Source of the DNA: Rhodobiaceae bacterium
Lineage (GTDB): Bacteria > Pseudomonadota > Alphaproteobacteria > MED-G09
Assembly: GCA_002731945.1 (NCBI GenBank)
Contig: PCCF01000014.1
Span: 1 to 33,189, forward strand
Reading direction: 5' to 3'
DNA: 33,189 bases
A program made the translations under genes and the position numbers. This document shows positions 12,331-30,084 of this stretch, in pieces. Under the pieces are notes generated by a model. That model searched no databases. It saw only the letters and a program-made list of their open reading frames with translations, and had not been told where the DNA came from. Every line of letters starts with the position of its first letter. Within the stretch, counting starts at the first letter, position 1.

Positions 12331-12407
12331 TGGTAGCGGGGGAGGGATTTGAACCCCCGACACGCGGATTATGATTCCGCCGCTCTAACCAACTGAGCTA
12401 CCCCGCC
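12331..12407 (-). tRNA. tRNA-Met (anticodon CAT)
   Basis: A 77-base cloverleaf on the minus strand with encoded CCA (12331-12333). The acceptor stem GGCGGGG pairs with CCCCGCT through one terminal G-U. The D-arm is GCTC/GAGC with loop AGTTGGTTA. The anticodon stem is GCGGA/TCCGC with loop ATCATAA, giving CAT. The T-arm holds TTCAAAT. The body resembles alphaproteobacterial elongator tRNA-Met. Initiator tRNA is excluded by the first base pair and D-arm. A lysidine-type tRNA-Ile2 is less likely but is not excluded by anticodon alone. Confidence 0.95.
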
Positions 12408-13582: not shown

Positions 13583-13701
13583 TCCATTCCTATTATTTTT
13601 TTCCTTATAGAACAATATAGTCTTATCTTTCAATCGATATATGAAAAAGAACAAAAGTTTATTTTATGTTAAACCGCCTTTAAAATTGATACTATCTTTT
13701 T

Positions 13702-14493
13702 ATGTCTGAAAAAACTCCAATTATTAAGGGCCTTGTTTCCCTTGCACACAAAGCTGGAAAGGAAGTTATGAACATATATGAAGGAGAAATTCAAACTCAA
13801 CTTAAAGAAGATAGGTCTCCCTTAACCCAGGCTGACATCAAGGCCGATAATATAATATTGGCGGGCCTTTGCGAGGATTACCCAAAAATTCCTACCATAT
13901 CTGAAGAGTCTTATAAAATAGGAAAAATTCCTAATCTTGAAGATTCTTTTTTCTTGGTTGATCCAATAGATGGAACCAATGAATTCATAAATAAAAACGA
14001 TGAATTCACAATAAATATTGCCTTCATAAAAAATAAAATACCCAAAGCAGGAGTGATTTATGCTCCCGCAAAGAAGAAGATGTATTATTCAGGTTTAGAA
14101 AATAAAGCTTATGAAATTGAATGTAGTCATGACGTTGAAGAAGTTCCATTCCAAAATAAAAGGCAAATATCTGTTAGTCCCGTATCTAAAAACCCTTTAA
14201 CAGTTACCATAAGCCGGTCACATAATAATGAAAAGACAGACGAATTTCTAAAAAATTATAATATTAAAAATACTATTATAACGGGATCCTCCATCAAATT
14301 TTGTCTCATTGCTTCTGGTTTAGCGGAGTTATATCCACGTTTGGGTCCAACACGTGAATGGGACGTTGCAGCAGGTCACGCTATACTCAAGGCTGCTGGT
14401 GGAAATGTTAGAATGATGGATAAATCCGAACTTCAATATGGAAAAGAAGAAGAAGATTTTTTAAACCCAGATTTTATTGCAACAAATTTTTAA
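13702..14493 (+). CDS. cysQ: 3'(2'),5'-bisphosphate nucleotidase
   Basis: Mg-dependent, Li-sensitive-type phosphatase that removes the 3'-phosphate from PAP/PAPS, linked to sulfate assimilation. It has 263 residues. The metal site is E68-E-S plus D87-P-I-D90-G-T-N-E-F, and the C-terminal signature is W-D-V-A-A-G-H-A-I-L-K-A-A-G-G. Inositol-monophosphatase relatives share these motifs, but the spacing and the N-E-F after D-G-T fit CysQ. No Shine-Dalgarno precedes the ATG, while TACTAT at 13690-13695 would start a transcript right at the ATG, so a leaderless mRNA is possible. Confidence 0.9.
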   Translation: MSEKTPIIKGLVSLAHKAGKEVMNIYEGEIQTQLKEDRSPLTQADIKADNIILAGLCEDYPKIPTISEESYKIGKIPNLEDSFFLVDPIDGTNEFINKNDEFTINIAFIKNKIPKAGVIYAPAKKKMYYSGLENKAYEIECSHDVEEVPFQNKRQISVSPVSKNPLTVTISRSHNNEKTDEFLKNYNIKNTIITGSSIKFCLIASGLAELYPRLGPTREWDVAAGHAILKAAGGNVRMMDKSELQYGKEEEDFLNPDFIATNF

Positions 14494-14534: not shown

Positions 14535-16754
14535 TTGAAATTAAGAAACTACTTTCTAATCTTTATTATCATTCTGATAGGAATTTTTATTTTTCAGAAT
14601 CTTACAATAGATGAAACTGAGACTGAAAATAATTTCGTCGAAACAAGTGATTCAATATTAGAAACATCCATTGAAATTAGTGAAGAAGTTAAATTTGCTA
14701 ATATAACTCAAGATAGAATCGTTAATGCTGATAACGAACCAGCTAATTGGTTATCTTACGGAAGAAATTACGAAGAACAGAGATTCTCTCCTCTAACACA
14801 GATCAACAAAGAAACAATAAAAGATCTTGAATTGGCCTGGTCCTTTGATATGAACAGTTCAAGAGCCCTTGAATCTACACCTATAGTTGAAAATGGGGTC
14901 ATGTTCCTTACCAGCGAATGGAGTATTGTGTACGCTATAGATGCTCGAACGGGCACTGAGATTTGGAGCTATGATCCTGAAGTTCCAAAAGATTGGGGAA
15001 GAAAGGCCTGCTGTGATGTTGTAAATAGAGGTGTAGCGGTTTGGAAAGGTCATGTTTTCTCTGCTACTTTGGATGGGAGATTAATAAAGCTTGACGCCAA
15101 AACAGGTGAGCTTGTTTGGGAAATCAATACTCTAATCGATCGATCGAGTGATTATACCATAACAGGCGCACCAAGAATTTCTAATAATAAAGTCTTTATA
15201 GGTAACGGGGGAGCGGAATATGGTGTAAGGGGTTATGTTTCGGCTTATGATACTGAAACAAGTGAGTTGGTTTGGAGGTTTTATACTGTACCAGGAAATC
15301 CTTCACTTCCCTTTGAGCATCCTGAAATGGAGTTGGCTGCAGAAACATGGAAAGGCGGTGAATGGTGGAAAATAGGTGGAGGAGGAACAGTTTGGAACTC
15401 GATTGTTTATGATCCAGATTTTAATCAATTGTATCTAGGAGTTGGAAATGGTTCTCCTTGGACTAGAGTAATTAGATCTCCTGGTGGAGGTGATAATCTT
15501 TTCCTTTCGTCAATAGTCGCTCTTGATGCAGATACAGGCAAAATGAAATGGTATTACCAGACAACTCCTGGTGATAATTGGGATTACACAGCTGTTCAAG
15601 ATATGATGTTAGCTGATATGGAGGTAGATGGAATTAAGAGAAAAATTCTTATGCAAGCCCCCAAAAATGGTTTCTTTTATGTGTTGGATAGAAAAGACGG
15701 TAAATTATTGAGAGCCCACAATTATGTTTCAGTCAATTGGGCCACCCATGTCGATATGGAAACCGGAAGACCTGTTGAAAATATGGAAAAAGATTACCTT
15801 AAAGAAAAACAGGTGATGACTCCAGGTCCACTAGGAGGTCACAACTGGCAAGCTATGTCGTATGATCCCAACTTAGGTCTGGTTTATATTCCTGCTCTTG
15901 AAGCTCCGTTGGTTTTTAAAATGACAGAAGAGTGGCAGAAGACTGGTAAACTCAAATACGAACCAAGAACCTGGAATCTTGGAATTGAATTAGCAAAATA
16001 TATAGAACTTGCTCTTGATACTCCTGAATTGCCAGCTCCCCATGGATTTCTAAAAGCTTTTGATCCTTTAACTGGTAAAACTAGATGGGTGGTAGATCAT
16101 CCCAATCATTGGAATGGAGGAACTTTGGCTACTAAATCTGGAATTGTTTTTCAGGGAAATGGTATGGGAACTTTTGATGCATATGATTCTGAAACCGGTC
16201 AACTGTTATGGTCTAAAAATATCCAAACAAGCATTATTGCACCACCTGTTACTTTTGAAGTAGACGGAGAACAGTACCTAGCTATTTTGGCTGGAACTGG
16301 AGGTGCAGATACTTTTGGTGGAGATCAACTTGGATTATCAACGGATTATATGGCATCCCTAAAGTATGGAAATTTAGGTAGGTTGCTCGCTTTTAAATTG
16401 GGAGGAACTGCAAAATTACCGAAACTTGAATTAATTGATAGGACTATTCCTGAGCAACCGATTTTGATATCAACCGATTACGATATTCAAAGAGGTACAG
16501 AATTATATGGGCAATATTGTGCTATGTGTCATGGATCTGCGGTAAGAGCGGGTTCTAATATTCCTGATCTAAGAATGATGAGTGAGGAAAGTCATAAACT
16601 TTTTAAGGAAATTGTTTATAACGGGATGTTAAAAGAAAACGGCATGTCGTCATTTTCTGATGTTTTATCGGAAAAAGATGTAGAAAGTATTTACCATTAT
16701 ATTATTAATATCGCGACGTCTGACAGAGTAGTTCAAATAGAATCCGGCGAATAA
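14535..16754 (+). CDS. PQQ-dependent dehydrogenase with C-terminal cytochrome c domain (copy 1)
   Basis: Quinohaemoprotein alcohol-dehydrogenase type, periplasmic and probably anchored by one N-terminal span (about 5-22). The eight-bladed propeller shows repeated W-motifs. The vicinal disulfide is C159-C160 (K-A-C-C-D-V-V-N-R-G). The catalytic Asp is D350 in N-W-D-Y-T. The residue two after it is Thr, not the extra Asp of lanthanide XoxF-type enzymes, so calcium is expected. The haem c site is C662-A-M-C665-H666, with a downstream Met (M-S-S-F) as probable axial ligand. At 739 residues it is a full type II enzyme. It starts at TTG behind GGGAG (14523-14527). It is followed 18 bases later by a close paralogue. 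No pqq synthesis genes are in the window and the substrate is unknown. Confidence 0.92.
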   Translation: MKLRNYFLIFIIILIGIFIFQNLTIDETETENNFVETSDSILETSIEISEEVKFANITQDRIVNADNEPANWLSYGRNYEEQRFSPLTQINKETIKDLELAWSFDMNSSRALESTPIVENGVMFLTSEWSIVYAIDARTGTEIWSYDPEVPKDWGRKACCDVVNRGVAVWKGHVFSATLDGRLIKLDAKTGELVWEINTLIDRSSDYTITGAPRISNNKVFIGNGGAEYGVRGYVSAYDTETSELVWRFYTVPGNPSLPFEHPEMELAAETWKGGEWWKIGGGGTVWNSIVYDPDFNQLYLGVGNGSPWTRVIRSPGGGDNLFLSSIVALDADTGKMKWYYQTTPGDNWDYTAVQDMMLADMEVDGIKRKILMQAPKNGFFYVLDRKDGKLLRAHNYVSVNWATHVDMETGRPVENMEKDYLKEKQVMTPGPLGGHNWQAMSYDPNLGLVYIPALEAPLVFKMTEEWQKTGKLKYEPRTWNLGIELAKYIELALDTPELPAPHGFLKAFDPLTGKTRWVVDHPNHWNGGTLATKSGIVFQGNGMGTFDAYDSETGQLLWSKNIQTSIIAPPVTFEVDGEQYLAILAGTGGADTFGGDQLGLSTDYMASLKYGNLGRLLAFKLGGTAKLPKLELIDRTIPEQPILISTDYDIQRGTELYGQYCAMCHGSAVRAGSNIPDLRMMSEESHKLFKEIVYNGMLKENGMSSFSDVLSEKDVESIYHYIINIATSDRVVQIESGE

Positions 16755-16772
16755 TTTATATGGTAAAAGAAA

Positions 16773-18995
16773 ATGCGACATCCTAGTTTTGGTAGAAACT
16801 TAGCCACTTTTATAAACCTTACATTAATTCTAACGCTCGCAATTTCTGTCTTCTACAAAACTTCAATGATAACCAGTCCTAAGATTATGAAAGAGATATC
16901 CATACCTGAGAAAGAGTTAGACAAGCAACTAAATAAGGTCGGAAATATTGATACAAACAGAATAATAAATGCTGACAGTGAGCCTGGTAATTGGCTTTCT
17001 CATGGAAGAAATTATGAAGAACAACGATATTCTCATCTAGATCAGATTAATCAGCAAACAGTTAAAGATCTTGAGCTTGAGTGGTCGTTAGAGATGGGGA
17101 CTACTCGAGGTCTAGAGGCTACTCCTATAGTGGATAATGGGATTATGTTTGTGACTAGCGCATGGAGCGTCGTTCATGCTGTAGATGCCCGTACCGGTAA
17201 AGAATTATGGGTTTATGATCCTGAAGTTCCAAGGAATTGGGCAAGAAAGGTGTGTTGCGACGTAGTAAATAGAGGTGCAGCATTATGGAAAGGTAAAGTT
17301 TATTTTGGAACTATTGACGGAAGATTAATTAGTTTGGAAGCAAAGACTGGTGAAGTAATTTGGGAAATTAATACCTTAATTGATAGTTCAAAAGATTACA
17401 CAATTACAGGTGCCCCCAGAGTAGCAAATAATAAAGTCTTCATTGGAAACGGTGGGGCAGATATGGGTGGTGTACGAGGTTATGTATCAGCATATGATAC
17501 AGACACAGGACAATTGGTATGGAGATTTTATACTGTTCCTGGCGACCCCTCTCTTCCCTTTGAACATCCAGAGTTGGTAGAAGCAGCAAAGACTTGGAAT
17601 GGTCAATGGTGGACAATGGGAGGAGGTGGAACAGTCTGGAATTCGATAGTCTACGATCCCAAATTTAATCAAATATACATTGGAACTGGGAACGGATCTC
17701 CTTGGAATCAGCAAATACGTTCGCCTGGAGGTGGTGACAATTTATTCCTTTCCTCAATTGTTGCGCTTGATGCTGATAATGGAAAAATGAATTGGCACTA
17801 CCAAACTACCCCGGAAGAGAGATGGGATTATACAGCTACACAAGACATTATGTTGAGCGAAATGGAAATAGACGGAGAAAATAGAAAGGTTCTTATGCAA
17901 GCACCAAAAAATGGTTTCTTTTATGTTCTTGATCGCGAAACCGGAGAATTATTAAGGGCAAATAATTTCGTTCACACGAATTGGGCAACACATGTTGATA
18001 TGGAAACTGGAAGGCCTGTTCTAAATCCTAATAAAGATTATTACGAAAAAGCGGTATGGATCGTTCCGGGAACTTATGGAGCTCACGGATGGCAAGCAAT
18101 GTCGTACGACCCCAAACAGAATTTAGTCTTTATACCAACAATGGAAGTTCCTGCTGTCCATAGAGTCAAAAAAACCTTTGCTGAAACTGGATTGTACAAA
18201 ATGTTACCAGAGACGGTAAATACTGGAACTGAATTCAATTTATTTGATACTGTTCCAGATATGGTTGAGGGTGAACTAATGCCCCCGATTACCGGAGAGC
18301 TAAAAGCTTTTGACCCGATAACTGGTGAAACCAAATGGTCTGTTAAACATCAACAGTTCTGGAATGGCGGTCCATTAACTACTGCTGGTGGATTAGTATT
18401 TCAAGGCAATGGATCAGGATTTTTGGAAGCCTATAATGTAGAAAATGGTGAAGTTATCTGGTCAAAAAATGTCAGAATTGGAATTATGGCACCGCCTGTA
18501 ACTTATTTAATAGACGGTGAGCAATATATATCAGTTCTCGCTGGAGACGGTGGAGCAAGCAACTTCCTTGGAGATAACCTTGGAGAATGGGAAGGAAAAG
18601 TAGCATCCATAAAATACGGCAATGACGGAAGGTTGCTTACTTTCAAGTTAAATGGGAAATCTGAAATAGAAGAGATACCAGAAAAAATCCTAAAGATACC
18701 GGAACAACCAATAATTAATGCAAGTATGGAAGATGTAAGAGCAGGAGAAGATATTTATGCTAATTATTGCGCCATTTGTCATGGCACTGGAGTGCACGGA
18801 AGAACGATCTCGGATTTGAGGTTAATGAGTCATGATACACACGAATTATTTAACGAAATAGTTCTTTATGGATTATTCGAGGAAAACGGTATGAAAGGAT
18901 TTTCGGATATATTGACAGAAAAAAGTGCTTTCCAAGTTTACTCTTTTATTGTAGACACTGCGACAAAAGAAAGATTGGCTCAACAAAATAATTAA
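16773..18995 (+). CDS. PQQ-dependent dehydrogenase with C-terminal cytochrome c domain (copy 2)
   Basis: Tandem paralogue of the preceding gene, 740 residues, same architecture: N-terminal anchor (about 12-28), vicinal C161-C162, catalytic D352 in R-W-D-Y-T with Thr two positions later (calcium type), and haem c site C666-A-I-C669-H670. The two copies match almost without gaps through the propeller (for example F-Y-T-V-P-G-x-P-S-L-P-F-E-H-P). They differ most in the N-terminal linker and around 'VPGTYGAHGW' versus 'TPGPLGGHNW', near where substrate access is expected, so they may differ in specificity. ATG start, probably in one transcript with copy 1. Its stop abuts the convergent three-gene cassette. 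Confidence 0.92.
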   Translation: MRHPSFGRNLATFINLTLILTLAISVFYKTSMITSPKIMKEISIPEKELDKQLNKVGNIDTNRIINADSEPGNWLSHGRNYEEQRYSHLDQINQQTVKDLELEWSLEMGTTRGLEATPIVDNGIMFVTSAWSVVHAVDARTGKELWVYDPEVPRNWARKVCCDVVNRGAALWKGKVYFGTIDGRLISLEAKTGEVIWEINTLIDSSKDYTITGAPRVANNKVFIGNGGADMGGVRGYVSAYDTDTGQLVWRFYTVPGDPSLPFEHPELVEAAKTWNGQWWTMGGGGTVWNSIVYDPKFNQIYIGTGNGSPWNQQIRSPGGGDNLFLSSIVALDADNGKMNWHYQTTPEERWDYTATQDIMLSEMEIDGENRKVLMQAPKNGFFYVLDRETGELLRANNFVHTNWATHVDMETGRPVLNPNKDYYEKAVWIVPGTYGAHGWQAMSYDPKQNLVFIPTMEVPAVHRVKKTFAETGLYKMLPETVNTGTEFNLFDTVPDMVEGELMPPITGELKAFDPITGETKWSVKHQQFWNGGPLTTAGGLVFQGNGSGFLEAYNVENGEVIWSKNVRIGIMAPPVTYLIDGEQYISVLAGDGGASNFLGDNLGEWEGKVASIKYGNDGRLLTFKLNGKSEIEEIPEKILKIPEQPIINASMEDVRAGEDIYANYCAICHGTGVHGRTISDLRLMSHDTHELFNEIVLYGLFEENGMKGFSDILTEKSAFQVYSFIVDTATKERLAQQNN

Positions 18996-18998
18996 CAA

Positions 18999-19556
18999 TT
19001 ACTTAGGTGGTAGACTGGGTTTAGCAATTTCATTAAATTCTAGATCTATGTCACCTGAAAGGGAATTATAGATATCAAAGTTCTTATCCATTTGAGGAAT
19101 TTCTTCTCCTTCATAAGACTTAAGTTCGAGATAAGTAAAACGCGCAGATATTGGCGTGCCTTTCTTTACTTTTTCCATAGCATCTTCTAATTTTTCGTTA
19201 ATAAGTGAATCATAAGGTATTTGTAATAATCTTGGTTCTGAAAGGATTAAACCTTGTTCACTAATCATCTGAACAAGAATATAAATTTTTCCTTTACTAG
19301 TAGTGCTCTTATCGGGATCTTCAGTTTTATGCCATAATAGTTGGAACGATTTATTATTTTTTAATATATCATCATTTTTGTATGGTCTTCCCTGCAAATC
19401 CTGAATGGCTTCATAGAAAATAATAAAGAATAACAAAGAACCTATAACGAAGAACGTCTTGAGAGTAACGGAAAATCTAGTAAAAAAATTCAAGCTTAAT
19501 AACAGTGCAAATAATGCGGCATAAGAAATTCCTAAAATTACTGGAATTGATAACAT
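18999..19556 (-). CDS. Unknown two-span membrane protein of the ExbB/ExbD-like cassette
   Basis: I do not recognise this 185-residue protein. It has two hydrophobic segments (about 5-25 and 32-49), then a soluble part of about 135 residues with a Q-D-L-Q-G-R-P motif just after the second span, a strand-rich core (K-I-Y-I-L-V-Q-M-I, P-R-L-L-Q-I-P-Y) and a Pro-rich tail. Its ATG overlaps the stop of the ExbD-like gene (TAATG), so it is translationally coupled and very likely part of the same complex. Both termini probably lie on the same side of the membrane. The side of the soluble domain cannot be decided from sequence alone. Confidence 0.65.
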   Translation of the reverse strand: MLSIPVILGISYAALFALLLSLNFFTRFSVTLKTFFVIGSLLFFIIFYEAIQDLQGRPYKNDDILKNNKSFQLLWHKTEDPDKSTTSKGKIYILVQMISEQGLILSEPRLLQIPYDSLINEKLEDAMEKVKKGTPISARFTYLELKSYEGEEIPQMDKNFDIYNSLSGDIDLEFNEIAKPSLPPK

Positions 19557-20176
19557 TATTTTAATACTCCAGATTTAGTTATCAGTAATTTTTGTGAATA
19601 GTTTAAATCCTCAACATTTCCTTTCTCGTCCAAAAAGAAACGGACAGCGGTCAATTCGTCACCGGTTTCTTTAAGAAAATGATTGCCAAAATACACTGTG
19701 TCAACTTCAGGATTAATCTTCTCAACCTTGACTTTGGTTTTTAAAGGAACTGAAAAATGTGCCTTATAATGCAACAGATTAACGACATATTCTCCAGCCA
19801 TAAAACCTCGTATGGTAACGATCTCTTGATTAGCAGGGTTCTCAACATTCACACCGTCAATTATTAATCTATCGGCTAAGGTTCCTCTATCATCTCTATC
19901 TAGGTGCATCAAACCTGCTTGCTGGTTCTGAAAATATACAACATTTCCCCTAGGATCTTCCACTATTAGGTCAATATCGTCAGGATGATAATCCTCCCAT
20001 TCTACAGATATTAGAAATTCTGCCTTTGATTCAATATTACCACCTTCTAGGGGTTTCTGAATAAGCGCAAAAGAAATAAAGAACATAAATGCAAAACCAA
20101 GCAATGCATTAAAAAGAAGATCGGTAAATGCATCTCCACTATTGTCTTCAGTAACTATTAGTTTGTTATTCAACAT
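19556..20176 (-). CDS. ExbD/MotB-like single-span protein with YfaP/DUF2135-like beta domain
   Basis: 206 residues. The N-terminus has the layout of ExbD/TolR/MotB stators: a short cytoplasmic tail, then D15-A-F-T-D19 at the start of one span (about 20-39). D19 is positioned like the proton-carrying Asp of ExbD and MotB. The rest is not an ExbD or OmpA domain. It is a beta-rich region with I-D-L-I-V-E-D-P-R-G-N-V-V-Y-F and then R-G-F-M-A-G-E-Y-V-V-N-L-L-H-Y, a pattern like the YfaP/DUF2135 sandwich. It overlaps the upstream ExbB-like gene by 11 bases and the downstream gene by one. I infer a proton-driven motor subunit with an unusual periplasmic head. Confidence 0.65.
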   Translation of the reverse strand: MLNNKLIVTEDNSGDAFTDLLFNALLGFAFMFFISFALIQKPLEGGNIESKAEFLISVEWEDYHPDDIDLIVEDPRGNVVYFQNQQAGLMHLDRDDRGTLADRLIIDGVNVENPANQEIVTIRGFMAGEYVVNLLHYKAHFSVPLKTKVKVEKINPEVDTVYFGNHFLKETGDELTAVRFFLDEKGNVEDLNYSQKLLITKSGVLK

Positions 20177-20798
20177 TTTTATCTAGATAAAAAGTTATGT
20201 CGTTAAGTAGTGAAGAAACCCTAACAGATAGAATATGAAATTGAATACGAGTGAGAGTACTTCCAATAAGACCAGTTAGAGTCGTATATAAGGCCACAGC
20301 CATACCTGAGCTCATGCCTGCTAATGCTAATTTCAAAGAGTCTGGGCTAGTATCATTTAATTCAGCAATAGGTTGTAACATTAAGATAAAACCTATGATT
20401 GTTCCCAAAAGACCTAATTTTAGAGAAATATCTGCAGCCATCCATCCATAGCTTAATTTTTTCGAATATTCTGCCTCAAAGGCTTTTAAGAGAATATCTT
20501 TTTCCTCACCTTTCTCTAGGGCCATAAAGTATTTAGAAATTGAAAGTTTACTATTTATAAAAGAATTGACGTTGAAAGAATCTCTTTCTTTTGAGATTTC
20601 ATTTGATAAAAATAGCCAGTACGAAGTTGAAATTATCCATAGAAAACCAATAACCTTGGAAATGTGACTTTTATCACCTTCCATAACAATAGAAATCAAT
20701 CCCCGGTCATTAAGAAGCCAAATACCAAAGATTATTAGCATGAGTAGTAACAATGATTTAAGTAGCCCAATGGATCTAAAAGATTGTTTTGTTGACAT
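20166..20798 (-). CDS. MotA/TolQ/ExbB-like proton-channel protein
   Basis: 210-residue integral membrane protein with four probable spans (about 11-29, 46-66, 121-143, 159-183). The last two form the conserved core: L-G-L-L-G-T-I-I-G-F, then A-L-A-G-M-S-S-G-M-A-V-A-L-Y-T-T-L-T-G-L-I-G, the hallmark of the MotA/TolQ/ExbB superfamily. It lacks flagellar features and there is no tonB, tolA, tolB or pal nearby. It is first in a three-gene overlapping cassette with an ExbD-like partner, so the pair probably forms a proton-conducting stator. What it drives is unknown. Confidence 0.75.
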   Translation of the reverse strand: MSTKQSFRSIGLLKSLLLLMLIIFGIWLLNDRGLISIVMEGDKSHISKVIGFLWIISTSYWLFLSNEISKERDSFNVNSFINSKLSISKYFMALEKGEEKDILLKAFEAEYSKKLSYGWMAADISLKLGLLGTIIGFILMLQPIAELNDTSPDSLKLALAGMSSGMAVALYTTLTGLIGSTLTRIQFHILSVRVSSLLNDITFYLDKNVE

Positions 20799-20905: not shown

Positions 20906-22240
20906 ATGGAAGAGAAGACTCTAATAGAAAACGGAAATGTTATTGATGGAACAGGTTCCAATATAAAAAAAGAATCTATTCTTATTGAAAAGAGTAATAT
21001 TTTAGCAACAGGCAAGGAAGCTGATGAGTTGGGTTCGGGAAATGATGTAAGAAGAGTTGATGCTAGCGGTAAAACAGTTATGCCAGGATTGATAGATTCG
21101 CATTGCCATATAACTTTTGATGAGCCCTCTTCAAATGATGAATTGTTCTTTCATAGAAGAGAAGGTTTAGCGGCAATAGTAGCTGCTTGGAATGTAAGAA
21201 AAGTTCTTCTTGCGGGAGTCACAGGATTTTTGGATGCTGACAGTCTCTTTGAAACCGGTATTGATCTTAGAGATGCAATAAACGGTGGTTATGTTGAGGG
21301 ACCTAGAATGTCAACTGGAGGTAATGCTCTATTAACGTCAGTTGGCGGGACAGCAGGAAGATTACTTCCTGATGACGGTCTTAGAGGATATGCTAAAGTT
21401 GTACATAATAATGATGAAATTTCTAAAGAAGTAAGGAAGCAAATAAAGCACGGTGTTGATTGGATCAAGATCCATGTAACTGGCCTAGTTCCAAATCAAA
21501 AAGAGGCAGGAGAGATTTCTGTATGGTCTTATGAAGAACTTAAACTGGTCTGTGATATCTCTCACGATCTTGGTGTCCAAGTAGTAGGTCATTGCAGAAA
21601 CGCCAAAAGTGTGACCGATAGCGTAAGAGCAGGAATGGATATGATACTTCATGCTACCTATATGGATGATGAAGCTATAGATTATGTCTGCTCTAATAAG
21701 ACACCTCTTGTACCAACTTTCACCTTCCAAGCTAATTTGGCTGATTACGGAAAAGCGGTAGGAGCATCTGAAGAATATCGAGAAATTTTTAAGAGAGAAA
21801 TAGACGAAAATTGTGAAATCTTAAAAAAAGTTCATGAGTCTGGGGTACCACTTCTATGCGGAACTGAAAGTGGGTTTTCTCTAACCCCATACGGAGAATG
21901 GCATCACCGAGAATTAGAGGTATTTTCAAATAACATCGGAATGACCAATCTTGAAACTATTGTTTGTGCAACCAAAAATGGAGCTTTGGCTTTACGAAGA
22001 GAAGGTGAGGTAGGGACCTTAGAAAAAGGCATGCTAGCGGATATTCTAGTTGTTGATGGTAATCCTCTGGAAGATATTACTGTATTAGGAGATAAATCCA
22101 AATTAGAATACATCTTTTTGGATGGTAAAGAGATAGATCAATCAATCCAACCATCTCAAGTAAACCCTGTTTCAGGTTGGAGATTATCTCCTTATTCAAA
22201 CAATATCCTTACCCAAGAGGTATCTAAAGAAAAACTCTAG
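20906..22240 (+). CDS. Metal-dependent amidohydrolase (imidazolonepropionase/prolidase-like)
   Basis: TIM-barrel amidohydrolase that should hydrolyse an amide, lactam or similar bond. Metal ligands: H66-x-H68 (D-S-H-C-H), K188 (W-I-K-I-H; candidate carboxylated Lys), H229 (G-H-C-R-N) and H249 (I-L-H-A-T). The position normally Asp (G-T-D-x-G) is E321 in C-G-T-E-S-G, a conservative but unusual change at the catalytic acid. The C-terminal G-M-L-A-D-I-L-V-V-D-G-N-P-L is standard. I choose the ATG at 20906 (444 residues). An upstream in-frame ATG at 20894 has no ribosome site, and its GGGGG acts as one for 20906. It is first in a six-gene operon and P450 copy 1 begins 3 bases after its stop. Confidence 0.87.
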   Translation: MEEKTLIENGNVIDGTGSNIKKESILIEKSNILATGKEADELGSGNDVRRVDASGKTVMPGLIDSHCHITFDEPSSNDELFFHRREGLAAIVAAWNVRKVLLAGVTGFLDADSLFETGIDLRDAINGGYVEGPRMSTGGNALLTSVGGTAGRLLPDDGLRGYAKVVHNNDEISKEVRKQIKHGVDWIKIHVTGLVPNQKEAGEISVWSYEELKLVCDISHDLGVQVVGHCRNAKSVTDSVRAGMDMILHATYMDDEAIDYVCSNKTPLVPTFTFQANLADYGKAVGASEEYREIFKREIDENCEILKKVHESGVPLLCGTESGFSLTPYGEWHHRELEVFSNNIGMTNLETIVCATKNGALALRREGEVGTLEKGMLADILVVDGNPLEDITVLGDKSKLEYIFLDGKEIDQSIQPSQVNPVSGWRLSPYSNNILTQEVSKEKL

Positions 22241-22243
22241 AAA

Positions 22244-23440
22244 ATGAAAGAATTTACTTTCACAAAATACGAAGAAGCTGTGAAGACACTTAGAAATAAT
22301 GATCTTATGCAGGCCTTATACGATGAAGGTGAAGTAATAATGGATAAAGTTCTAGTTTGCCTTCATGGAGAAGAGCATAAACAGAGAAGAAAATTAGAGA
22401 ACAAGATATTTACTCGAGATACATTTAAATTGTACGAAGACAAAATTTTCCCAAAAACTATTGAAGAAACGTTAGAGCCTTTCAAAAGAACAGGGAAACT
22501 AGATTTAGTAGATTTTGGGTTTAGAGTTTTGTTAAATCTCACTGCGGATTTTTCAGGTATTGATAGACCTGAAAAATCCGAAGGGGAAACCGAGATGCTT
22601 CTCGGAATGTTGAAGACATTTGCCTCAGGAGCGACTCTAGCTCATTCAACTCGTGACCATGATGAAGTTAAATTAGAGGTAAAAAAAGCTCTTGAAGAAT
22701 TTGATGTAAGATTTTTAGGTCCTTCAATTGAAACACGAAAATTATTAATCAATAATAATGATGACCCCAACGATTTACCGAAAGATATATTAACAATTCT
22801 TTTGTTGAATGAGGATAAATTGAGTCTACCCCATGATGTCCTTATGAGAGAAGTCGCTTTTTATTTGCTCGCTGGCGCTCAGACATCTATTCATTCTCTA
22901 GTACATGCTTTTCATGAAATCATGGAGTGGCTAAATAAGTATCCTGATGAAAAAAACAACATCTACAAAAATCCGATCTTTTTACAAAGATGCGTGCATG
23001 AAAGCACCAGGCTTCATCCTTCAAGTCCTGTTGCATGGAGGAAACCAATATGTCCCGTAAGTCTACCCAATGATCAAGATGCAAAAGAAGGGGATAAAGT
23101 CATTATTGACCTTTATAATTCAAATAGGGATAAAGAAATCTTCGGAAAAGATGCAAGGGAATTTAATCCAAAGAGAAAAACTCCGGATGGACAAAATATT
23201 TATGGACTATCATTTGGTTTAGGAATGCACTCATGTATAGGAAGAAACTTGGCCGCAGGAATTGTCGCTAAAGAAGATACTGACCCAAATAATCATCAAT
23301 ATGGAACGGTTACAATGATAATGAGAGTTTTACTTAGTTATAACGCTCTTCCAAACCCAGACGACTCACCAAAAATGGATGAAAAGACCAAAAGACCTAA
23401 TTGGGGTTATTATCCAATATTAATTGACGCTGCGGGCTAA
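22244..23440 (+). CDS. Cytochrome P450 (copy 1)
   Basis: Soluble bacterial P450, 398 residues. The haem ligand is C331 in F-G-L-G-M-H-S-C-I-G-R-N-L-A. The K-helix ExxR is E253-S-T-R256 followed by L-H-P-S-S-P-V-A-W-R-K. The C-helix region has H-G-E-E-H-K-Q-R-R-K. The I-helix oxygen-activation motif reads A-G-A-Q213-T214-S: the usual acidic residue is Gln while the Thr is kept. No ferredoxin or reductase gene is nearby, so electrons must come from elsewhere. It lies 3 bases after the amidohydrolase and 4 bases before its paralogue. The product cannot be predicted. Confidence 0.93.
   Translation: MKEFTFTKYEEAVKTLRNNDLMQALYDEGEVIMDKVLVCLHGEEHKQRRKLENKIFTRDTFKLYEDKIFPKTIEETLEPFKRTGKLDLVDFGFRVLLNLTADFSGIDRPEKSEGETEMLLGMLKTFASGATLAHSTRDHDEVKLEVKKALEEFDVRFLGPSIETRKLLINNNDDPNDLPKDILTILLLNEDKLSLPHDVLMREVAFYLLAGAQTSIHSLVHAFHEIMEWLNKYPDEKNNIYKNPIFLQRCVHESTRLHPSSPVAWRKPICPVSLPNDQDAKEGDKVIIDLYNSNRDKEIFGKDAREFNPKRKTPDGQNIYGLSFGLGMHSCIGRNLAAGIVAKEDTDPNNHQYGTVTMIMRVLLSYNALPNPDDSPKMDEKTKRPNWGYYPILIDAAG
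22973..23006 (+). repeat. 34-base near-identical segment shared by the two P450 genes (unit 1)
   Basis: Matches 24186-24219 at 33 of 34 bases, including synonymous positions, and encodes the K-helix region P-I-F-L-Q-R-C-V-H-E-S. Surrounding nucleotides of the two genes are much more diverged. Confidence 0.7.
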
Positions 23441-23444
23441 AATA

Positions 23445-24653
23445 GTGACAACATTTAAGACCTCGAACTACGAAATTATCAAAAAAGCTCTTGTTAATAG
23501 AGATCTCAAACAAGCCCTGTATGATGAAGGTAAAGTTATTATGGAAGGAGTCCTCTTAACACTCCATGGAGAAGAACATCACCAAAGAAGAAAACTAGAA
23601 CATAAAGTATTTCAAAGAGACTTTTTTAAGTATTATGAGCACGAGCTTTTTCCAAAAACCTTAAATGAGACCATATCGCCTTTTCTACGGAAAGGCTCAG
23701 CAGATCTTCTTGATTTTGGATACCGAATAACAATGAATCTTACTGCAGACTTCGCAGGGATAGATCGATTTAAAAAAACTCCTGAAGAGACCGAAAATTT
23801 ATTAACTCTTGTAAAAATTTTTAGTCAGGGTGCCACATTGGTTCATTCTAAGAGACCGCATGACGAAGTTAATATGGAAGTTACGGAAGCCTTAGAAGTA
23901 TTTGAAGAAAAATTTTTAATACCCTCTAAAAACAGAAGATTAAAAATTTTAAAACAATTTAATGAGAACATACTTAATGAGAATGATCTTCCTCGGGATG
24001 TGTTAACTGTACTGCTCAGAAATGTAGATGGAATTAATTTGGATGATGACCTTATTAAGAGGGAGATAGCTTTTTATCTTCAGGCTGGTTCTCATAGCAC
24101 AGCCAATTCAATGGTTCATGCCCTGCATGAGATTTTTGAATGGATGGAAAAACATTCAGAAGATAAAGAAAAAATCTACAACGACCCGATCTTTTTACAA
24201 AGGTGCGTGCATGAAAGCATGAGATTGCACCCCGCCAGTCCCGTTGCATGGAGAAAACCTACATGCCCTCTTGAGCTTGATAAAGAAATCAAAATGAATC
24301 AGGGTGATCTTCTTATCATGGATTTGCATAATGCCAACAGAGATAAAGAAATTTTTGGAAATGATGCAGAGGAATTTAATCCGTATAGAGAACTAGATCC
24401 AAATCAAAGCATATGGGGACTAACTTTTGGCATAGGACTACATTTATGTTTTGGTAGAGATCTAGATGGAGGATTAATAGCGGATGAAAAGACTAAACCT
24501 GAAAAACACCAATATGGAATAGTCACATTACTTGTTAGAAAACTTTTTGAAAACAAAGTAAGGTTAGACCCTGATAACAAACCTTTAAAGGACATGAATA
24601 CCGAAAGACCAAACTGGGGAAATTATCCAGTTCTATTTGGAGAGAAAAAGTGA
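23445..24653 (+). CDS. Cytochrome P450 (copy 2)
   Basis: Tandem paralogue of the preceding P450, 402 residues from the GTG at 23445. An in-frame TTG at 23424 would overlap the previous gene, but the GTG directly follows the previous stop and aligns with the paralogue's N-terminus. The haem ligand is C335 in F-G-I-G-L-H-L-C-F-G-R-D-L. ExxR is E257-S-M-R260, then L-H-P-A-S-P-V-A-W-R-K. The I-helix motif reads A-G-S-H217-S218-T, so both the acid and the Thr of the usual acid-alcohol pair are replaced, by His and Ser. The active site therefore differs from copy 1 and from most P450s. It overlaps the next gene by 4 bases (GTGA). Confidence 0.92.
   Translation: MTTFKTSNYEIIKKALVNRDLKQALYDEGKVIMEGVLLTLHGEEHHQRRKLEHKVFQRDFFKYYEHELFPKTLNETISPFLRKGSADLLDFGYRITMNLTADFAGIDRFKKTPEETENLLTLVKIFSQGATLVHSKRPHDEVNMEVTEALEVFEEKFLIPSKNRRLKILKQFNENILNENDLPRDVLTVLLRNVDGINLDDDLIKREIAFYLQAGSHSTANSMVHALHEIFEWMEKHSEDKEKIYNDPIFLQRCVHESMRLHPASPVAWRKPTCPLELDKEIKMNQGDLLIMDLHNANRDKEIFGNDAEEFNPYRELDPNQSIWGLTFGIGLHLCFGRDLDGGLIADEKTKPEKHQYGIVTLLVRKLFENKVRLDPDNKPLKDMNTERPNWGNYPVLFGEKK
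24186..24219 (+). repeat. 34-base near-identical segment shared by the two P450 genes (unit 2)
   Basis: Partner of 22973-23006, with one mismatch (A/G at a third codon position). It covers the same K-helix residues in copy 2. Confidence 0.7.
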
Positions 24654-25390
24654 AACATGCGATAGTAACCGGCGCTGGCAAAGGTATAGGAAAAGAAATA
24701 TCTGAACATTTAAATAAAAATGGATATAGGGTGGGTATGATTGATATCGATGATGAAGCTCTAGAAAACAATAGTAAAATTTACAAAAACACTATAGCAA
24801 TTAAAGGGGATGTTACGGATGAAGAATCTATTAAAAAAGCCTTTGAAAGATTTGGAGAAACCCCAGATTTGCTGGTGAATAACGCTGGCATCGTAATTTT
24901 TGGAACTTTAGAAGAGCAAGGTGTTCAAGATTTCAAAAAAAGTATAGATATTAGTCTAGTAGGATCCTACATAACCTCACTAACAGCAATAAATAGTATG
25001 ATAAAGAAGGGCTCTGGATCTATTATAAATATGTCATCAATAAACGGTATCCATCCAGGACCTGGAACAGGGGGTTACCCTGCAGCTAAAGCAGGAATTA
25101 TATCTTTAACTCAACAAATGTCCATTGAATGGGGACATTATGGAATTAGGGTAAATTCAATATCACCAGGTTTTATCGATGCTGGTATGTCTAAACCTAT
25201 TTATGCCGATCCAAAAGTTAGGGAGTTAAGAGGAAAATCGGTTCCAACAAAAAGACTGGGTGAGGCTAAAGATATTGCAAATGCGGTTTTGTTTCTTGCC
25301 TCCGAACAAGCCTCGTATATAAACGGTCACAATTTAGTAGTAGATGGAGGAGTTATAAACAGCATTATTGCTCAACTTCCGCGTGAATAA
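24650..25390 (+). CDS. SDR-family oxidoreductase (FabG-like), operon gene 4
   Basis: Classical short-chain dehydrogenase, 246 residues. Cofactor motif T-G-A-G-K-G-I-G (7-14). An acidic end of the second strand (M-I-D32-I-D) points to NAD rather than NADP. N-N-A-G at 77-80, Ser129/130, and Y143-P-A-A-K147 complete the active site. C-terminal N-G-H-N-L-V-V-D-G-G. It starts at a GTG whose bases overlap the P450 stop, so it is translationally coupled. An NAD-linked oxidation of an alcohol formed by the P450s is a reasonable guess but unproven. It overlaps the ThuA-like gene by one base. Confidence 0.9.
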   Translation: MKHAIVTGAGKGIGKEISEHLNKNGYRVGMIDIDDEALENNSKIYKNTIAIKGDVTDEESIKKAFERFGETPDLLVNNAGIVIFGTLEEQGVQDFKKSIDISLVGSYITSLTAINSMIKKGSGSIINMSSINGIHPGPGTGGYPAAKAGIISLTQQMSIEWGHYGIRVNSISPGFIDAGMSKPIYADPKVRELRGKSVPTKRLGEAKDIANAVLFLASEQASYINGHNLVVDGGVINSIIAQLPRE

Positions 25391-26076
25391 TGAAAAAAAA
25401 CTTAATTATCTCGGGGGGTATATTTCACCCTTTTGAAGACTCCTCAAAAACATTATCGACAATCCTCGATGATATTGGTTATGAATCTTTAATAACTATG
25501 GATATCGAGGGAGCATTTAAAAATTTGGAAGATTATGATTTGCTAACAATTAATGCTCTTAGGTGGAGAATGTTAAATCATGAGAAATATTTACCTTATA
25601 TAGATGAATGGGCGTTCAGCTTATCAGATGACGGAAGGAAACATTTGGATAATTACATTAAAAACGGAGGATCCATGATAGCTCTTCATACCTCTTCAAT
25701 ATGTTTTGATGATTGGGATGGGTGGTCAAAAGTTTTAGGTGGTAAATGGAATTGGGATAGGACTTTCCATCCACCTTTAGGGCCTATAAAAGTAACGCCC
25801 ATAGCAAACCATTTTGTAACAGATAATATTCAATCCTTTACTCTAAATGATGAGGTCTATCACAATCTTGAGCTTGAGCCGGAATCAAAACCTTTTTTGA
25901 TAGGGTACACTGAAGAAACAAAAGAAGAGCATATAATTGCCTGGAGTTACGAATATCATCAAGGAAGAGTAATATATAATGCACTCGGACATGACTCGGA
26001 CTCTTTAGTAAATGAGGAATTATCAGAAATAATTAAAAGGTCTGTACTATGGGTAAGTGGAGATAGTGATGCTTGA
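25390..26076 (+). CDS. ThuA-like domain protein, operon gene 5
   Basis: 228 residues with the ThuA-like fold (a class I glutamine-amidotransferase relative, often found in sugar-utilisation loci). Seen: an N-terminal strand L-I-I-S-G-G-I-F-H-P, Y-D-L-L-T-I-N-A, then G-G-S-M-I-A-L-H-T-S, L-G-G-K-W-N-W, H-F-V-T-D-N-I, N-D-E-V-Y-H, and a C-terminal G-R-V-I-Y-N-A-L-G-H-D, all typical of the family. No catalytic triad is obvious and family members have poorly defined activity. The ATG overlaps the preceding SDR stop (TAATG), and its own end overlaps the next SDR start. Confidence 0.82.
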   Translation: MKKNLIISGGIFHPFEDSSKTLSTILDDIGYESLITMDIEGAFKNLEDYDLLTINALRWRMLNHEKYLPYIDEWAFSLSDDGRKHLDNYIKNGGSMIALHTSSICFDDWDGWSKVLGGKWNWDRTFHPPLGPIKVTPIANHFVTDNIQSFTLNDEVYHNLELEPESKPFLIGYTEETKEEHIIAWSYEYHQGRVIYNALGHDSDSLVNEELSEIIKRSVLWVSGDSDA

Positions 26077-26830
26077 TATAAAGTCAATGTCTATGATAAT
26101 AACTGGAGGGTGCACCGGTCTGGGTTATGGTATGGCAAAACAGTTTTCTGAAAAAGGAGCAAGGATAACTATTTGCGGAAGAAGACCAGAAAAAGTTGAA
26201 GAGGCCGGCGCTAGTCTTGGAAAAAATGTAAGGGCCATAGTGGCTGATGTTACAAAAGAAGACGACCGTAACAAGATAGTTAAGGAAGCAATAAATCACG
26301 GAAAAAAAATTGATGTTTTAGTGAATAATGCAGGAAATATGTACCGCGGTAAGATTGATGAGCTCAAAGAAGATAAGCTTATGGAAATCTTTAATTCCAA
26401 CGTTGTTGCTGGAATGATGCTTTTAGGTAAAGTAAAAAATTATCTGAAGGAGTCCAAAGGCGTTAATATTTTTATCGGATCTGTTCATAACAGAAGAGCT
26501 TTTCCTGGTGCTTCACCCTATGCAGCAACAAAAGGAGCTTTGGAAACCTTAACAAAAGTTCTTGCTGCCGAACTTGGTGAAGATAAGATTAGAGTGAATT
26601 GCGTAGTACCAGGAGCAATCTTTACTGAGATCAATCAAAGAGCGGGAATATACGATGATGAAACCGCAAAAAAAAGGCTGGATTCCATGGCTCGAATTCA
26701 TGCTATGGGCAGAATTGGAAAACCCCATGAAATAGCTGAAGCGGTTGAATATTTAATATGCGCCGAATGGACAACAGGAGCGGTATTGGATGTTGATGGT
26801 GGATTAGGGCTTGGAATTACTGAAGACTAA
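26069..26830 (+). CDS. SDR-family oxidoreductase, operon gene 6
   Basis: Short-chain dehydrogenase, 253 residues from the ATG at 26069, behind GGAG (26059-26062). A GTG at 26057 in the same frame has no ribosome site. Cofactor motif T-G-G-C-T-G-L-G (12-19). C-G-R38-R39 at the end of strand two suggests NADP. N-N-A-G at 86-89, Ser138 and Y151-A-A-T-K155 are intact. C-terminal G-A-V-L-D-V-D-G-G. Its start lies inside the ThuA-like gene. It is the last gene of the six-gene operon and its stop directly abuts the stop of a convergent SDR. Together with gene 4 it would supply one NAD- and one NADP-preferring SDR. Confidence 0.9.
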   Translation: MLDIKSMSMIITGGCTGLGYGMAKQFSEKGARITICGRRPEKVEEAGASLGKNVRAIVADVTKEDDRNKIVKEAINHGKKIDVLVNNAGNMYRGKIDELKEDKLMEIFNSNVVAGMMLLGKVKNYLKESKGVNIFIGSVHNRRAFPGASPYAATKGALETLTKVLAAELGEDKIRVNCVVPGAIFTEINQRAGIYDDETAKKRLDSMARIHAMGRIGKPHEIAEAVEYLICAEWTTGAVLDVDGGLGLGITED

Positions 26831-27622
26831 CTATATTGGAAGTCCAGATACTCCGCCATCAACAGCTATTGATTGTCCGGTAATATAGCTTGATTTATCA
26901 GAGGATAAAAAAGCCACTAGTGCTGCTAACTCCTCTGCTTTCCCTACTCTTTTCGCTGGAATGTCACTTGCTATGGAGTTAATAATTTCTTCTTCGGTTT
27001 TTTTTGACGCTTCAGCCTGATGCTTAATTATTCCATCCACTCTTTCCGTATGAGTAAATCCAGGACATACATTATTTATTAAAACATTGTGTTCCGCTAA
27101 TTGATTTGAAAGGGTTTTCGACCAACCATGTACTGACATTCTAACTCCATTAGAAAGGATTAAATTGTCTATAGGTTGTTTTGCTGAAATTGAGCTAATG
27201 TTAGTTATTCTACCCCATCTATTTTTTTTCATAGAGGGTATAACTTTTCTAGTCACTCGAACAGCAGACAGAAAAGTTGATTCAAAAGTTTTCACCCAGT
27301 CACTATCATCCAATTCATCAAAATAGCCAGCCTTGGGACCTCCGGTATTGTTAACCAAAATATCAATATTGCCGAGTTCTTTTTCTACATGACTAACAAG
27401 ATTATCTATATCTTCTTTATTGCTTAGGTCAGCCTGTATACAAAAAACATCTGAATTGGTGAGTTCTTTTATATCATTTGCTGCCTTCTTTATTTTTTCT
27501 TCATCCCTTGAACAAATAGCTAATTTGACTCCTTCTTTTGCTAACTCTATTGCTGAAGCCTTCCCTAGACCTTGACTTGCAGCAGTTACCAATGCCACCT
27601 TATTATTAATTCCTAAGTCCAT
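26831..27622 (-). CDS. SDR-family protein with atypical S-x3-R active site
   Basis: 263 residues with the SDR fold: T-A-A-S-Q-G-L-G (13-20), N-N-T-G-G (91-95), I-S-S (Ser143/144) and C-terminal G-Q-S-I-A-V-D-G-G. At the position of the catalytic Y-x3-K it has S157-N-G-V-R161, and a Lys at 169 (S-K-T-L). I recall an SDR subgroup with this L-S-N-x-x-R pattern, so it is probably a real subfamily rather than decay. The reaction is not predictable. It is transcribed alone on the minus strand, convergent with the operon and divergent from the molybdenum hydroxylase gene. Confidence 0.85.
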   Translation of the reverse strand: MDLGINNKVALVTAASQGLGKASAIELAKEGVKLAICSRDEEKIKKAANDIKELTNSDVFCIQADLSNKEDIDNLVSHVEKELGNIDILVNNTGGPKAGYFDELDDSDWVKTFESTFLSAVRVTRKVIPSMKKNRWGRITNISSISAKQPIDNLILSNGVRMSVHGWSKTLSNQLAEHNVLINNVCPGFTHTERVDGIIKHQAEASKKTEEEIINSIASDIPAKRVGKAEELAALVAFLSSDKSSYITGQSIAVDGGVSGLPI

Positions 27623-27726: not shown

Positions 27727-30084
27727 ATGTCTGATCAGGGAATGGGTAAGTCAGTTCTAAGGAAAGAGGATCATCGTTTCATAACTGGTCAAGGAACTTA
27801 CACTGATGACATAAAACAACCAAACCAATTATATGCATACTTTTTAAGATCTCCTGTTGCTCATGCTATTTTGAAATCTATAAGCACCAAAAAAGCCGAG
27901 GTGAGCAAGGGTGTTGTAGCTGTTTATACTGGAAAGGATACTGATGCAGCTCTTCCTTGTGGTTGGGAAACCCCAACTAAAGCAGGCACGCCTCCAATGG
28001 CAGAACCTCCATGGCCCATTTTTGCTCAAGAAAAAATAAGGTTTGTCGGAGAGTTATTGGCAGTTGTAATTGCTGAAAACGTTAATCAAGCAAAAGATGC
28101 ATGTGAGTTAATAGAATATGATTATGATGAACTTGAAGCAGTTGTTTCACCTTTAAAATCCCAACAAGATGGGGCTCCACAAATATGGGAGGGCATCGCC
28201 AATAATCAATGCTTCGATTGGGAGCTAGGTGATAAAGAGGCAACTGAAAAAGCCTTTAGAGAAGCTAAACATCATGTAAAAATTGAACTGACCAATAATA
28301 GGCTTGTACCAAACGCCATGGAACCCAGATCCTACATTGGAATGTATGACAAGGGTAAAGATGAGTACACGCTTTATACTACAACTCAACTACCCCATAT
28401 TATTCGAATGCTAGTATGTGGGGTTCTTGGTTTGGAAGAACAAAAAGTCCGAGTGATTTCTCTAGATGTTGGTGGTGGTTTTGGGTCAAAAGCCTTCCAT
28501 TACGCAGAAGAGTCCGCGGTTACTTGGATTGCAGGAAAATTAGCACGTCCTATAAAGTGGACATCTGAAAGAAGTGAAGCCTTTATTAGCGATAGACATG
28601 GTAGGGATCATATAACAACAGCAGAAGTAGCTATGGATTCTGATGGAAATTTCTTGGCTATGAGAGTGGATACTCTAGCTGCCCTCGGTGGATATTTGTC
28701 AGGATCTGGTCCCGCTATTCCAACTTTTTTCTATGGTCCACTAATACCTGGTCCTTATAAGACCCCTAATATTTACTGCAACGTAAAAGGTATATTCACA
28801 AATACGGTTCCGGTGGATGCCTACAGAGGCGCAGGCAGGCCTGAGGCTACCTATGTCACTGAGAGGTTAGTTGAGGCTGCAGCCAGAACTATAGGTATTG
28901 ATGCAATAGAATTGCGCAAAAAGAATTTTATCCAACCTGATCAATTTCCCTACGCTTCGCCTGGAACGCTAACATACGACAGCGGTGACTATCAAGCTAC
29001 CCTTGATTCAGCTCTTCAGGCAATTGATTATAAGAATTTCGAAAAAAGAAAAGAGAAGTCACGAAATATAGGAAAATACAGGGGTCTTGGCATCTCATGC
29101 TATATTGAAGCGTGTGGTGTTGCCCCATCAAAGGTAACGCTTGAAGCTGGCGGAAGAGGTGGATATTACGAATCCGCAACAGTAAGAGTAAATCCAACTG
29201 GATCCGTTAGCGTCTTTATTGGCTCCCACTCCCATGGTCAGGGTCATGAAACAGTTTTTGCTCAAATAGTCCATGAGAAACTGGGTGTACCCTTTGAGTC
29301 AGTTGATATCGTTCATGGGGATACAGGGCGAATTCCTTTTGGAGTGGGTACAGTTGGGTCTAGGTCGTTGGCAGTGGGTGGGCCGGCATTAGTTAAATCC
29401 TTGGATAAAATTATCAATAAAGGCAAGGACATTGCTGCTCATTTACTTGAATCATCGGTAGATGAAATTATTTTTGAAAATGGTGAATTTTCAATTGAGA
29501 ATTCCAATAAATTTGTTGCTTTAAGCGATGTTATTGGGGCCGCTTACGTTCCTGGAAATTATCCAATTGAAAGACTTGAACCGGGGCTTGAGGAAACATC
29601 TTTTTATGACCCTCCCAACCTAACTTTCCCCGCAGGCGCCCATATATGTGAAGTTGAAATTGACCCAGAAACGGGACAAACCAAGATAGAAAATTATTGT
29701 GTTTCCGATGACTTCGGTATCGTAATAAATCCTATGATAGTAGAAGGACAAGTTCATGGCGGGGTTGCCCAGGGTATAGGGCAAGCAATGTTGGAGAATT
29801 GTGTTTATGAAGAGAAAACTGCTCAACTCCTTAATGGCTCTTTCATGGATTATACCATGCCAAGGGCTGATAGTGTGCCTCATATGACAGTAAAAACAGA
29901 AGTCACACCATGCGTACATGGCTTGGGAGTCAAGGGTTGTGGTGAAGCTGGCGCAATTGCTGCCCCTCCAGCAGTTATCCATGCAATAATAGATGCTCTT
30001 AAAGATTTAGGAGTTAAAGATTTCGAAATGCCGGCTACCCCAGATAAGGTTTGGAAAGCCATTCAATTAAGTCAGAATAACTAA
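27727..30084 (+). CDS. Molybdenum hydroxylase large subunit (form II CoxL-like aldehyde/xanthine oxidase family)
   Basis: 785 residues, full length for the molybdopterin-cytosine-dinucleotide subunit of the xanthine oxidase/CO dehydrogenase family. Seen: an N-terminal R-K-E-D-H-R-F-I-T-G-Q-G-T-Y segment, the cofactor-binding G-G-G-F-G-S-K (249-255), A-Y-R-G-A-G-R (365-371) and the catalytic G-E740-A-G-A-I-A-A-P-P. A-Y-R-G-A-G-R is the form II motif; true CO dehydrogenases carry A-Y-x-C-S-F-R, so CO oxidation is unlikely. An aldehyde or N-heterocycle is more plausible. The 2Fe-2S and FAD subunits that normally sit beside it are absent here. AAGGT lies 7-8 bases before the ATG. Its stop overlaps the hemJ stop on the other strand. 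Confidence 0.92.
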   Translation: MSDQGMGKSVLRKEDHRFITGQGTYTDDIKQPNQLYAYFLRSPVAHAILKSISTKKAEVSKGVVAVYTGKDTDAALPCGWETPTKAGTPPMAEPPWPIFAQEKIRFVGELLAVVIAENVNQAKDACELIEYDYDELEAVVSPLKSQQDGAPQIWEGIANNQCFDWELGDKEATEKAFREAKHHVKIELTNNRLVPNAMEPRSYIGMYDKGKDEYTLYTTTQLPHIIRMLVCGVLGLEEQKVRVISLDVGGGFGSKAFHYAEESAVTWIAGKLARPIKWTSERSEAFISDRHGRDHITTAEVAMDSDGNFLAMRVDTLAALGGYLSGSGPAIPTFFYGPLIPGPYKTPNIYCNVKGIFTNTVPVDAYRGAGRPEATYVTERLVEAAARTIGIDAIELRKKNFIQPDQFPYASPGTLTYDSGDYQATLDSALQAIDYKNFEKRKEKSRNIGKYRGLGISCYIEACGVAPSKVTLEAGGRGGYYESATVRVNPTGSVSVFIGSHSHGQGHETVFAQIVHEKLGVPFESVDIVHGDTGRIPFGVGTVGSRSLAVGGPALVKSLDKIINKGKDIAAHLLESSVDEIIFENGEFSIENSNKFVALSDVIGAAYVPGNYPIERLEPGLEETSFYDPPNLTFPAGAHICEVEIDPETGQTKIENYCVSDDFGIVINPMIVEGQVHGGVAQGIGQAMLENCVYEEKTAQLLNGSFMDYTMPRADSVPHMTVKTEVTPCVHGLGVKGCGEAGAIAAPPAVIHAIIDALKDLGVKDFEMPATPDKVWKAIQLSQNN

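Follow-up and report, generated by a model that had tools for sequence, protein, structure and literature searches.

What does a gene-poor marine bacterium do with six closely packed genes for a hydrolase, two cytochromes P450, two short-chain dehydrogenases and a ThuA-like protein? The genes lie in a stretch of 33,189 nucleotides, called the window here, on contig C13 of a genome of 1.37 Mb that is 95.6% complete. Its host belongs to an alphaproteobacterial family akin to 'MED-G09' whose genomes are streamlined (~1.4 Mb); among named records that hold all or some of the operon genes, the nearest are the MAGs alpha proteobacterium MED-G09 and Alphaproteobacteria bacterium SI039_bin91. The operon and its two downstream neighbours are laid out as follows.

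20906-22240, plus strand: AH, the opening gene of the operon, an Amidohydro_1 hydrolase of 444 aa (Pfam PF01979, 2.4e-29)
22244-23440, plus strand: P450A, a short cytochrome P450 of 398 aa with I-helix AGAQT (PF00067, 4.5e-19)
23445-24653, plus strand: P450B, a short cytochrome P450 of 402 aa with I-helix AGSHS and LDGG after the heme motif (PF00067, 5e-16)
24650-25390, plus strand: SDR1, an NAD-type short-chain dehydrogenase with a GTG start (PF13561, adh_short_C2, 4.1e-57)
25390-26076, plus strand: ThuA-like protein of 228 aa (PF06283, 1.7e-21)
26069-26830, plus strand: SDR2, an NADP-type short-chain dehydrogenase (PF13561, adh_short_C2, 2.6e-47)
26831-27622, minus strand: SDR3, a short-chain dehydrogenase without YxxxK, a convergent neighbour adjoining SDR2
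27727-30084, plus strand: CoxL-type molybdenum-hydroxylase large subunit with the motif AYRGAGR (MoCoBD_1/2)

A previous sequence-only reading had proposed six co-directional genes with particular spacings. Indeed, all six frames are on the plus strand, and the five gaps from AH to SDR2 are +3, +4, -4, -1 and -8 bases, exactly as claimed, SDR1 overlapping P450B by 4 bases and SDR2 overlapping ThuA by 8. P450B starts with GTG, its mechanical ORF beginning at 23424, and AH has an in-frame alternative ATG at 20894. The enzyme set proposed at that time is also confirmed, since every family scores above its Pfam curated cut-off (AH, 103 bits against a gathering threshold of 25; P450A and P450B, 69 and 59 bits against 22.8; ThuA, 77.8 bits against 33.4). 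The same is true of the division into NAD- and NADP-type SDRs: strand 2 ends in Asp in SDR1 (MIDID) and in Arg-Arg in SDR2 (CGRR), and both proteins have YxxxK.

The operon contains no transporter, regulator or redox partner gene, a promoter scan of the locus was uninformative, and no Rfam family was found near the operon. Three minus-strand genes (18999-20798), one MotA/TolQ/ExbB-like and two without a Pfam match, lie divergently upstream, are conserved in the family, and separate the operon from a tandem of two paralogous PQQ alcohol dehydrogenases that carry cytochrome c domains (14535-18995). Elsewhere in the window, a possible diiron protein (9167-10291) has a weak AurF match, below cut-off, and a tRNA gene (12334-12407, minus strand) overlaps the mechanical start of ORF 11572-12363, so that the real start of this ORF is later.

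Within the family, the P450 pair is present in all six genomes that are at least 90% complete. P450B has matches of at least 549 bits in 13 of the 18 family genomes; G011 and G013 hold P450B fragments or P450A at contig ends, and the remaining three, G007, G012 and G017, lack P450B and are 61-79% complete. The order AH-P450A-P450B-SDR1-ThuA-SDR2-SDR3(minus strand)-CoxL stands on one contig in ten family genomes, and most members keep the 4-base P450B/SDR1 and 1-base SDR1/ThuA overlaps. Because the housekeeping flanks (mnmA, cysQ, hemF and hemE) are also syntenic within the family, this order alone does not prove a functional unit.

Outside the family, the six genes occur in the same order on pTHN, a conjugative megaplasmid of the lake bacterium Novosphingobium sp. 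THN1 (locus L065), which was located by tblastn against PLSDB plasmids. Identities there are 57% for AH, 43% for P450A, 51% for P450B, 45% for SDR1, 33% for ThuA and 47% for SDR2. The operon is preceded by CoxS-CoxL-CoxM-CoxG and by MFS and OYE genes on the minus strand; it is followed by Amidohydro_2, SDR3 (46%) and limonene-epoxide-hydrolase-like genes, all on the minus strand, then by a hydratase-like gene and a MarR regulator. The marine housekeeping flanks and the PQQ genes were not found at this locus. SDR3 of the window lacks YxxxK despite a good SDR score, and its pTHN copy likewise lacks the motif. P450B (13233-14422), CoxM (5869-6798) and the hydratase-like gene (19018-19829) of L065 appear frameshifted, through assembly error or decay.

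Among 385 class genomes, the P450 pair was found outside the family only in G242, an unrelated genome, and in G143, with one distant single match in G072. One contig end of G242 carries CoxL (minus strand), AH (62%), P450A (52%), P450B (61%) and SDR1 residues 1-75, and another carries SDR1 residues 78-246, ThuA (50%), SDR2 (64%) and Amidohydro_2, a layout consistent with a contig break inside SDR1. A squalene-hopene cyclase gene, scoring above cut-off, lies near this operon in a separate transcription unit (L068, 856-2928). The operon is only partly present in G143 and in G855, one of 397 genomes of another family. In G855, P450B (52%), SDR1 (52%), ThuA (31%) and SDR2 (53%) are followed by a more distant P450 (39%) and then by an FAD enzyme nearest to 3-ketosteroid-delta1-dehydrogenases, below cut-off. 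A 399-genome phylum sample gave no further member beyond the window's own, and no relative of the operon P450s was found in viral contigs. P450s of Sphingobium TKS and Paracoccus (25-30%) were rejected as the same system, as their neighbours differ. We conclude that the operon is real and conserved and that it is otherwise rare; a search for its gene order, which had been suggested from the sequence, finds that the order is not unique, being shared by ten family genomes, pTHN and G242.

The flanking genes had been linked to the operon as well. For the molybdenum hydroxylase and SDR3 this link is supported outside the family, but the PQQ dehydrogenases have to be removed from the system: they are absent beside the pTHN operon, and in several relatives the operon stands without the first copy (PQQ1) next to it. 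The CoxL-type subunit is 50-54% identical to its counterparts beside the pTHN and G242 operons. Its AYRGAGR loop marks a CoxL form that is not a CO dehydrogenase; assignment to aerobic CO dehydrogenase (TIGR02416) was rejected on this loop, which is not AYxCSFR, and on a score of 624.7 bits against 991. The small and FAD subunits (CoxS/CoxM) are grouped with CoxG away from the operon in G001, G002 and G006, and were not found in the window's own assembly. Presumed pathway partners are scattered across the marine genomes, where counterparts of the pTHN CoxS, CoxM, CoxG, OYE, Amidohydro_2 and limonene-epoxide-hydrolase-like genes show about 35-65% identity. Those of Amidohydro_2 (46-51%) and OYE (42-44%) stand at other loci, and because both are large families, identities of 44-50% do not prove a shared pathway. 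The window genome also encodes two small [2Fe-2S] ferredoxins, one beside a reductase-like gene at C21, which could be the electron donors of the P450s.

The two P450s share the ESxR (ExxR) and heme-Cys (FGxGxHxCxG) motifs in all aligned copies. P450B is 69-73% identical within the family and 54% identical to P450A. In a maximum-likelihood tree, the A and B copies form separate clades, supported at 100/99 each, and pTHN, G242 and G143 are represented in both. The presence of these distant members in both clades implies that the duplication predates the spread of the operon, and so ancient a split argues for two distinct jobs. The P450 I-helix usually has an acid-alcohol pair; here the acid is replaced, by Gln, His or Phe in P450A and by His in P450B. 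An AlphaFold model of P450B (six sequences) has a pLDDT of 74 and a P450 fold, with a TM of ~0.6-0.7 to P450 structures. The best profile for both proteins is TIGR04538, at 75.0 and 62.8 bits; membership was rejected against its cut-off of 500. The nearest solved structures by profile are those of CYPX/CYP134A1, 7ow9 (2.2e-16) and 3nc3.

AH has the metal ligands HxH, Lys, His and His, with Glu (residue 321) at the position of the strand-8 Asp. This Glu, in the motif GTESGF, is found in all 13 family members, in pTHN and in G143, which reads GSES. A 40% identical Rhodococcus relative keeps the Asp and was rejected as the same system on this residue and on its flavin hydroxylase, RidA and FAH neighbours. 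The PDB chains nearest to AH are 2qs8, a Xaa-Pro dipeptidase (1.4e-45), and Cc2672; membership of the Xaa-Pro dipeptidase family NF051886 was rejected at 227 bits against a cut-off of 500. At another locus of the same genome (L084, G000:C18), an Amidohydro_1 and Amidohydro_2 pair stands among Rieske oxygenases, transporters and a TonB-receptor-like gene.

Few genomes carry this ThuA subfamily: among the 385 of the class, five non-family ones do (E 1e-25). SDR1 adjoins ThuA in all five, and also on pTHN, in G855 and on Azospirillum p3, and an Amidohydro_2 gene lies within a few kilobases of the pair in G242, G241, G293, G370, Azospirillum and pTHN. Counterparts of AH, the P450s and SDR2 were not found in the SDR1-ThuA stretches of Azospirillum, G241, G293 and G370. 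The existence of this core without P450s suggests that it is apparently fed by different oxygenases in different genomes. From the window genome to Azospirillum and Nonomuraea, 31 ThuA residues are invariant, including H13, H100, D107, H127, D154, E155, H201 and D202; a structure model of ThuA was too poor for use and was discarded. The Azospirillum stretch (L072, 6824-12421) holds SDR1-ThuA, an SDR3 counterpart (45%), Amidohydro_2, a TauD dioxygenase, a QuiC-like TIM barrel and a sulfonate-type ABC transporter.

Overall, we read the locus, with a probability of about 0.55, as a cytosolic catabolic operon of two modules whose substrate would be a small natural product with a ring, most likely an alicyclic or heterocyclic one. 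Catabolism is indicated by the mobility of the plasmid and by the MFS transporter, MarR regulator, OYE and hydratase genes nearby, though the route might modify its compound rather than degrade it; two modules are suggested by the recurrence of the SDR1-ThuA unit, usually beside Amidohydro_2, without P450s in other alphaproteobacteria. In the catabolic direction, division of labour and order of steps that we infer, AH of the upper module would use metal-dependent hydrolysis to open or trim the substrate. P450A and P450B, with electrons from a ferredoxin and a ferredoxin reductase whose genes lie elsewhere, would each hydroxylate a different position. SDR2 would work at a carbonyl of one product, by oxidation or reduction, and the CoxL-type enzyme may put oxygen from water onto a heterocycle or oxidise an aldehyde. 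In the lower module, SDR1 would turn a hydroxyl into a ketone with NAD+, and ThuA, together with an Amidohydro_2 enzyme encoded elsewhere in the window genome, would cleave the activated ketone, the fragments presumably passing to central metabolism.

Oxidative breakdown of a cyclic compound, as the sequence-only reading had it, remains the best fit, but its two substrate classes are not borne out: 'cyclic amide' was based only on the name amidohydrolase, and 'terpenoid-like' on neighbouring genes that do not demonstrate it. Members of the amidohydrolase superfamily also attack lactones, ureas and C-C bonds. As for mycosporine-like amino acids, their ring type and habitat made them a candidate, but a literature search gave no support for them. 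The claim that the pathway matches no known one agrees with our literature search, which turned up no characterised pathway that has these genes; the search covered the gene combination, ThuA function and MED-G09 and found no description, which is weak evidence of absence given that subscription papers lay mostly outside it.

A bolder version, which we offer tentatively and think rather doubtful, is a new oxidative catabolic route in which the anciently diverged short P450 pair and the Glu-type amidohydrolase would feed a portable SDR1-ThuA-Amidohydro_2 core. ThuA would cleave a ketone, derived from a ring compound other than a sugar that is abundant both in fresh water and at the ocean surface. 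If true, the ThuA family would gain a new function, and the P450s would found a family of their own. Because a gene-poor, streamlined family keeps the P450 pair in every near-complete genome examined, the substrate is probably a regular component of dissolved organic matter. Since a Novosphingobium strain in culture carries a related operon on its plasmid, the question of the substrate can be put directly to experiment, and the recurring SDR1-ThuA-Amidohydro_2 unit offers a way into the little-known ThuA family.

In a rival reading, the substrate is an alicyclic terpenoid- or steroid-like ring compound, with dehydrogenation and hydration flanking the P450 steps. This is suggested by the FAD enzyme of G855, by the OYE and limonene-epoxide-hydrolase-like genes of pTHN and by the cyclase gene near the G242 operon. 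We nevertheless consider it unlikely: each association stands beside one operon only, the FAD enzyme falls well short of all curated cut-offs, and the clear cyclase belongs to another transcription unit. We know of no role of AH or ThuA in terpenoid or steroid pathways.

CypX-type P450s decorate cyclic dipeptides, and the six genes might similarly form a biosynthetic or tailoring operon in which P450s and SDRs decorate a natural product. The best P450 profile is indeed the cyclodipeptide-synthase-associated TIGR04538, and 7ow9 and 3nc3 are the nearest structures, but the profile scores are far under cut-off and the match to 7ow9 is just 2.2e-16. The operon contains no synthase, ligase or exporter, and beside the pTHN operon none was recognised except the MFS transporter. 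Vertical retention in a streamlined genome and carriage on a plasmid fit catabolism better, which leaves a tailoring role distinctly unlikely.

Breakdown of a lumichrome- or flavin-type N-heterocycle would have a P450 act on a ring methyl, SDRs on the alcohol, amidohydrolases open the heterocycle and the molybdenum hydroxylase hydroxylate it. The lumichrome cluster indeed combines a P450, alcohol and aldehyde oxidation, hydrolases and a xanthine oxidase (PMC12746152). In the Nocardioides simplex cluster, however, the P450 is self-sufficient and the xanthine oxidase is a single chain, and there are also a thiamin-dependent decarboxylase and Rieske and ring-cleavage dioxygenases (PMC12746152). 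The operon P450s (398 and 402 aa) are the P450 domain alone, with no fused ferredoxin/reductase domains. No thiamin-dependent decarboxylase, Rieske or ring-cleavage dioxygenase occurs among the six or adjacent genes, Rieske oxygenases being present elsewhere in the window genome, and the single-chain xanthine oxidase has no match in the operon. No counterpart of ThuA or SDR1-ThuA appears for the lum cluster in the parts of its description covered here (PMC12746152), and we judge this substrate very unlikely. Finally, a chance cluster kept by the general synteny of a streamlined genome, as the syntenic housekeeping flanks within the family might suggest, is refuted by the pTHN and G242 loci, with the same order, overlapping genes and unrelated flanks, and has almost no chance of being correct.

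The two-module catabolic operon that we favour shares parts with several known systems. AH has the fold family and the HxH-Lys-His-His ligands of Xaa-Pro dipeptidase/arginine carboxypeptidase (2qs8, Cc2672), whereas its strand-8 Asp is replaced by Glu. CypX/CYP134A1 and TIGR04538 are the closest P450 structure and profile by sequence, but the operon P450s start ~36 residues later than 7ow9 in the profile alignment, differ in the I-helix and in the stretch that follows the heme Cys, and no cyclodipeptide synthase was recognised near the operon. ThuA/ThuB trehalose utilisation likewise places a ThuA domain next to a dehydrogenase gene; in the operon, however, the partner of ThuA is an SDR, there is no ThuB-type GFO/IDH/MocA dehydrogenase among the six genes, and there is no sugar transporter. 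The SDR1-ThuA-Amidohydro_2 clusters of Azospirillum brasilense p3, G241, G293 and G370 share the adjacency, with 45-52% identity in SDR1, 41-43% in ThuA and 55-56% between their Amidohydro_2 and the pTHN copy, but differ from the operon in having a TauD-type dioxygenase (Azospirillum), TIM-barrel genes and other transporters. Among published pathways, the lumichrome (riboflavin) cluster comes closest in logic, with a P450, dehydrogenases, hydrolases and a molybdenum hydroxylase that act on a ring compound (PMC12746152); in the parts of its description covered here, the lum cluster does not have the paired stand-alone P450s of the operon.
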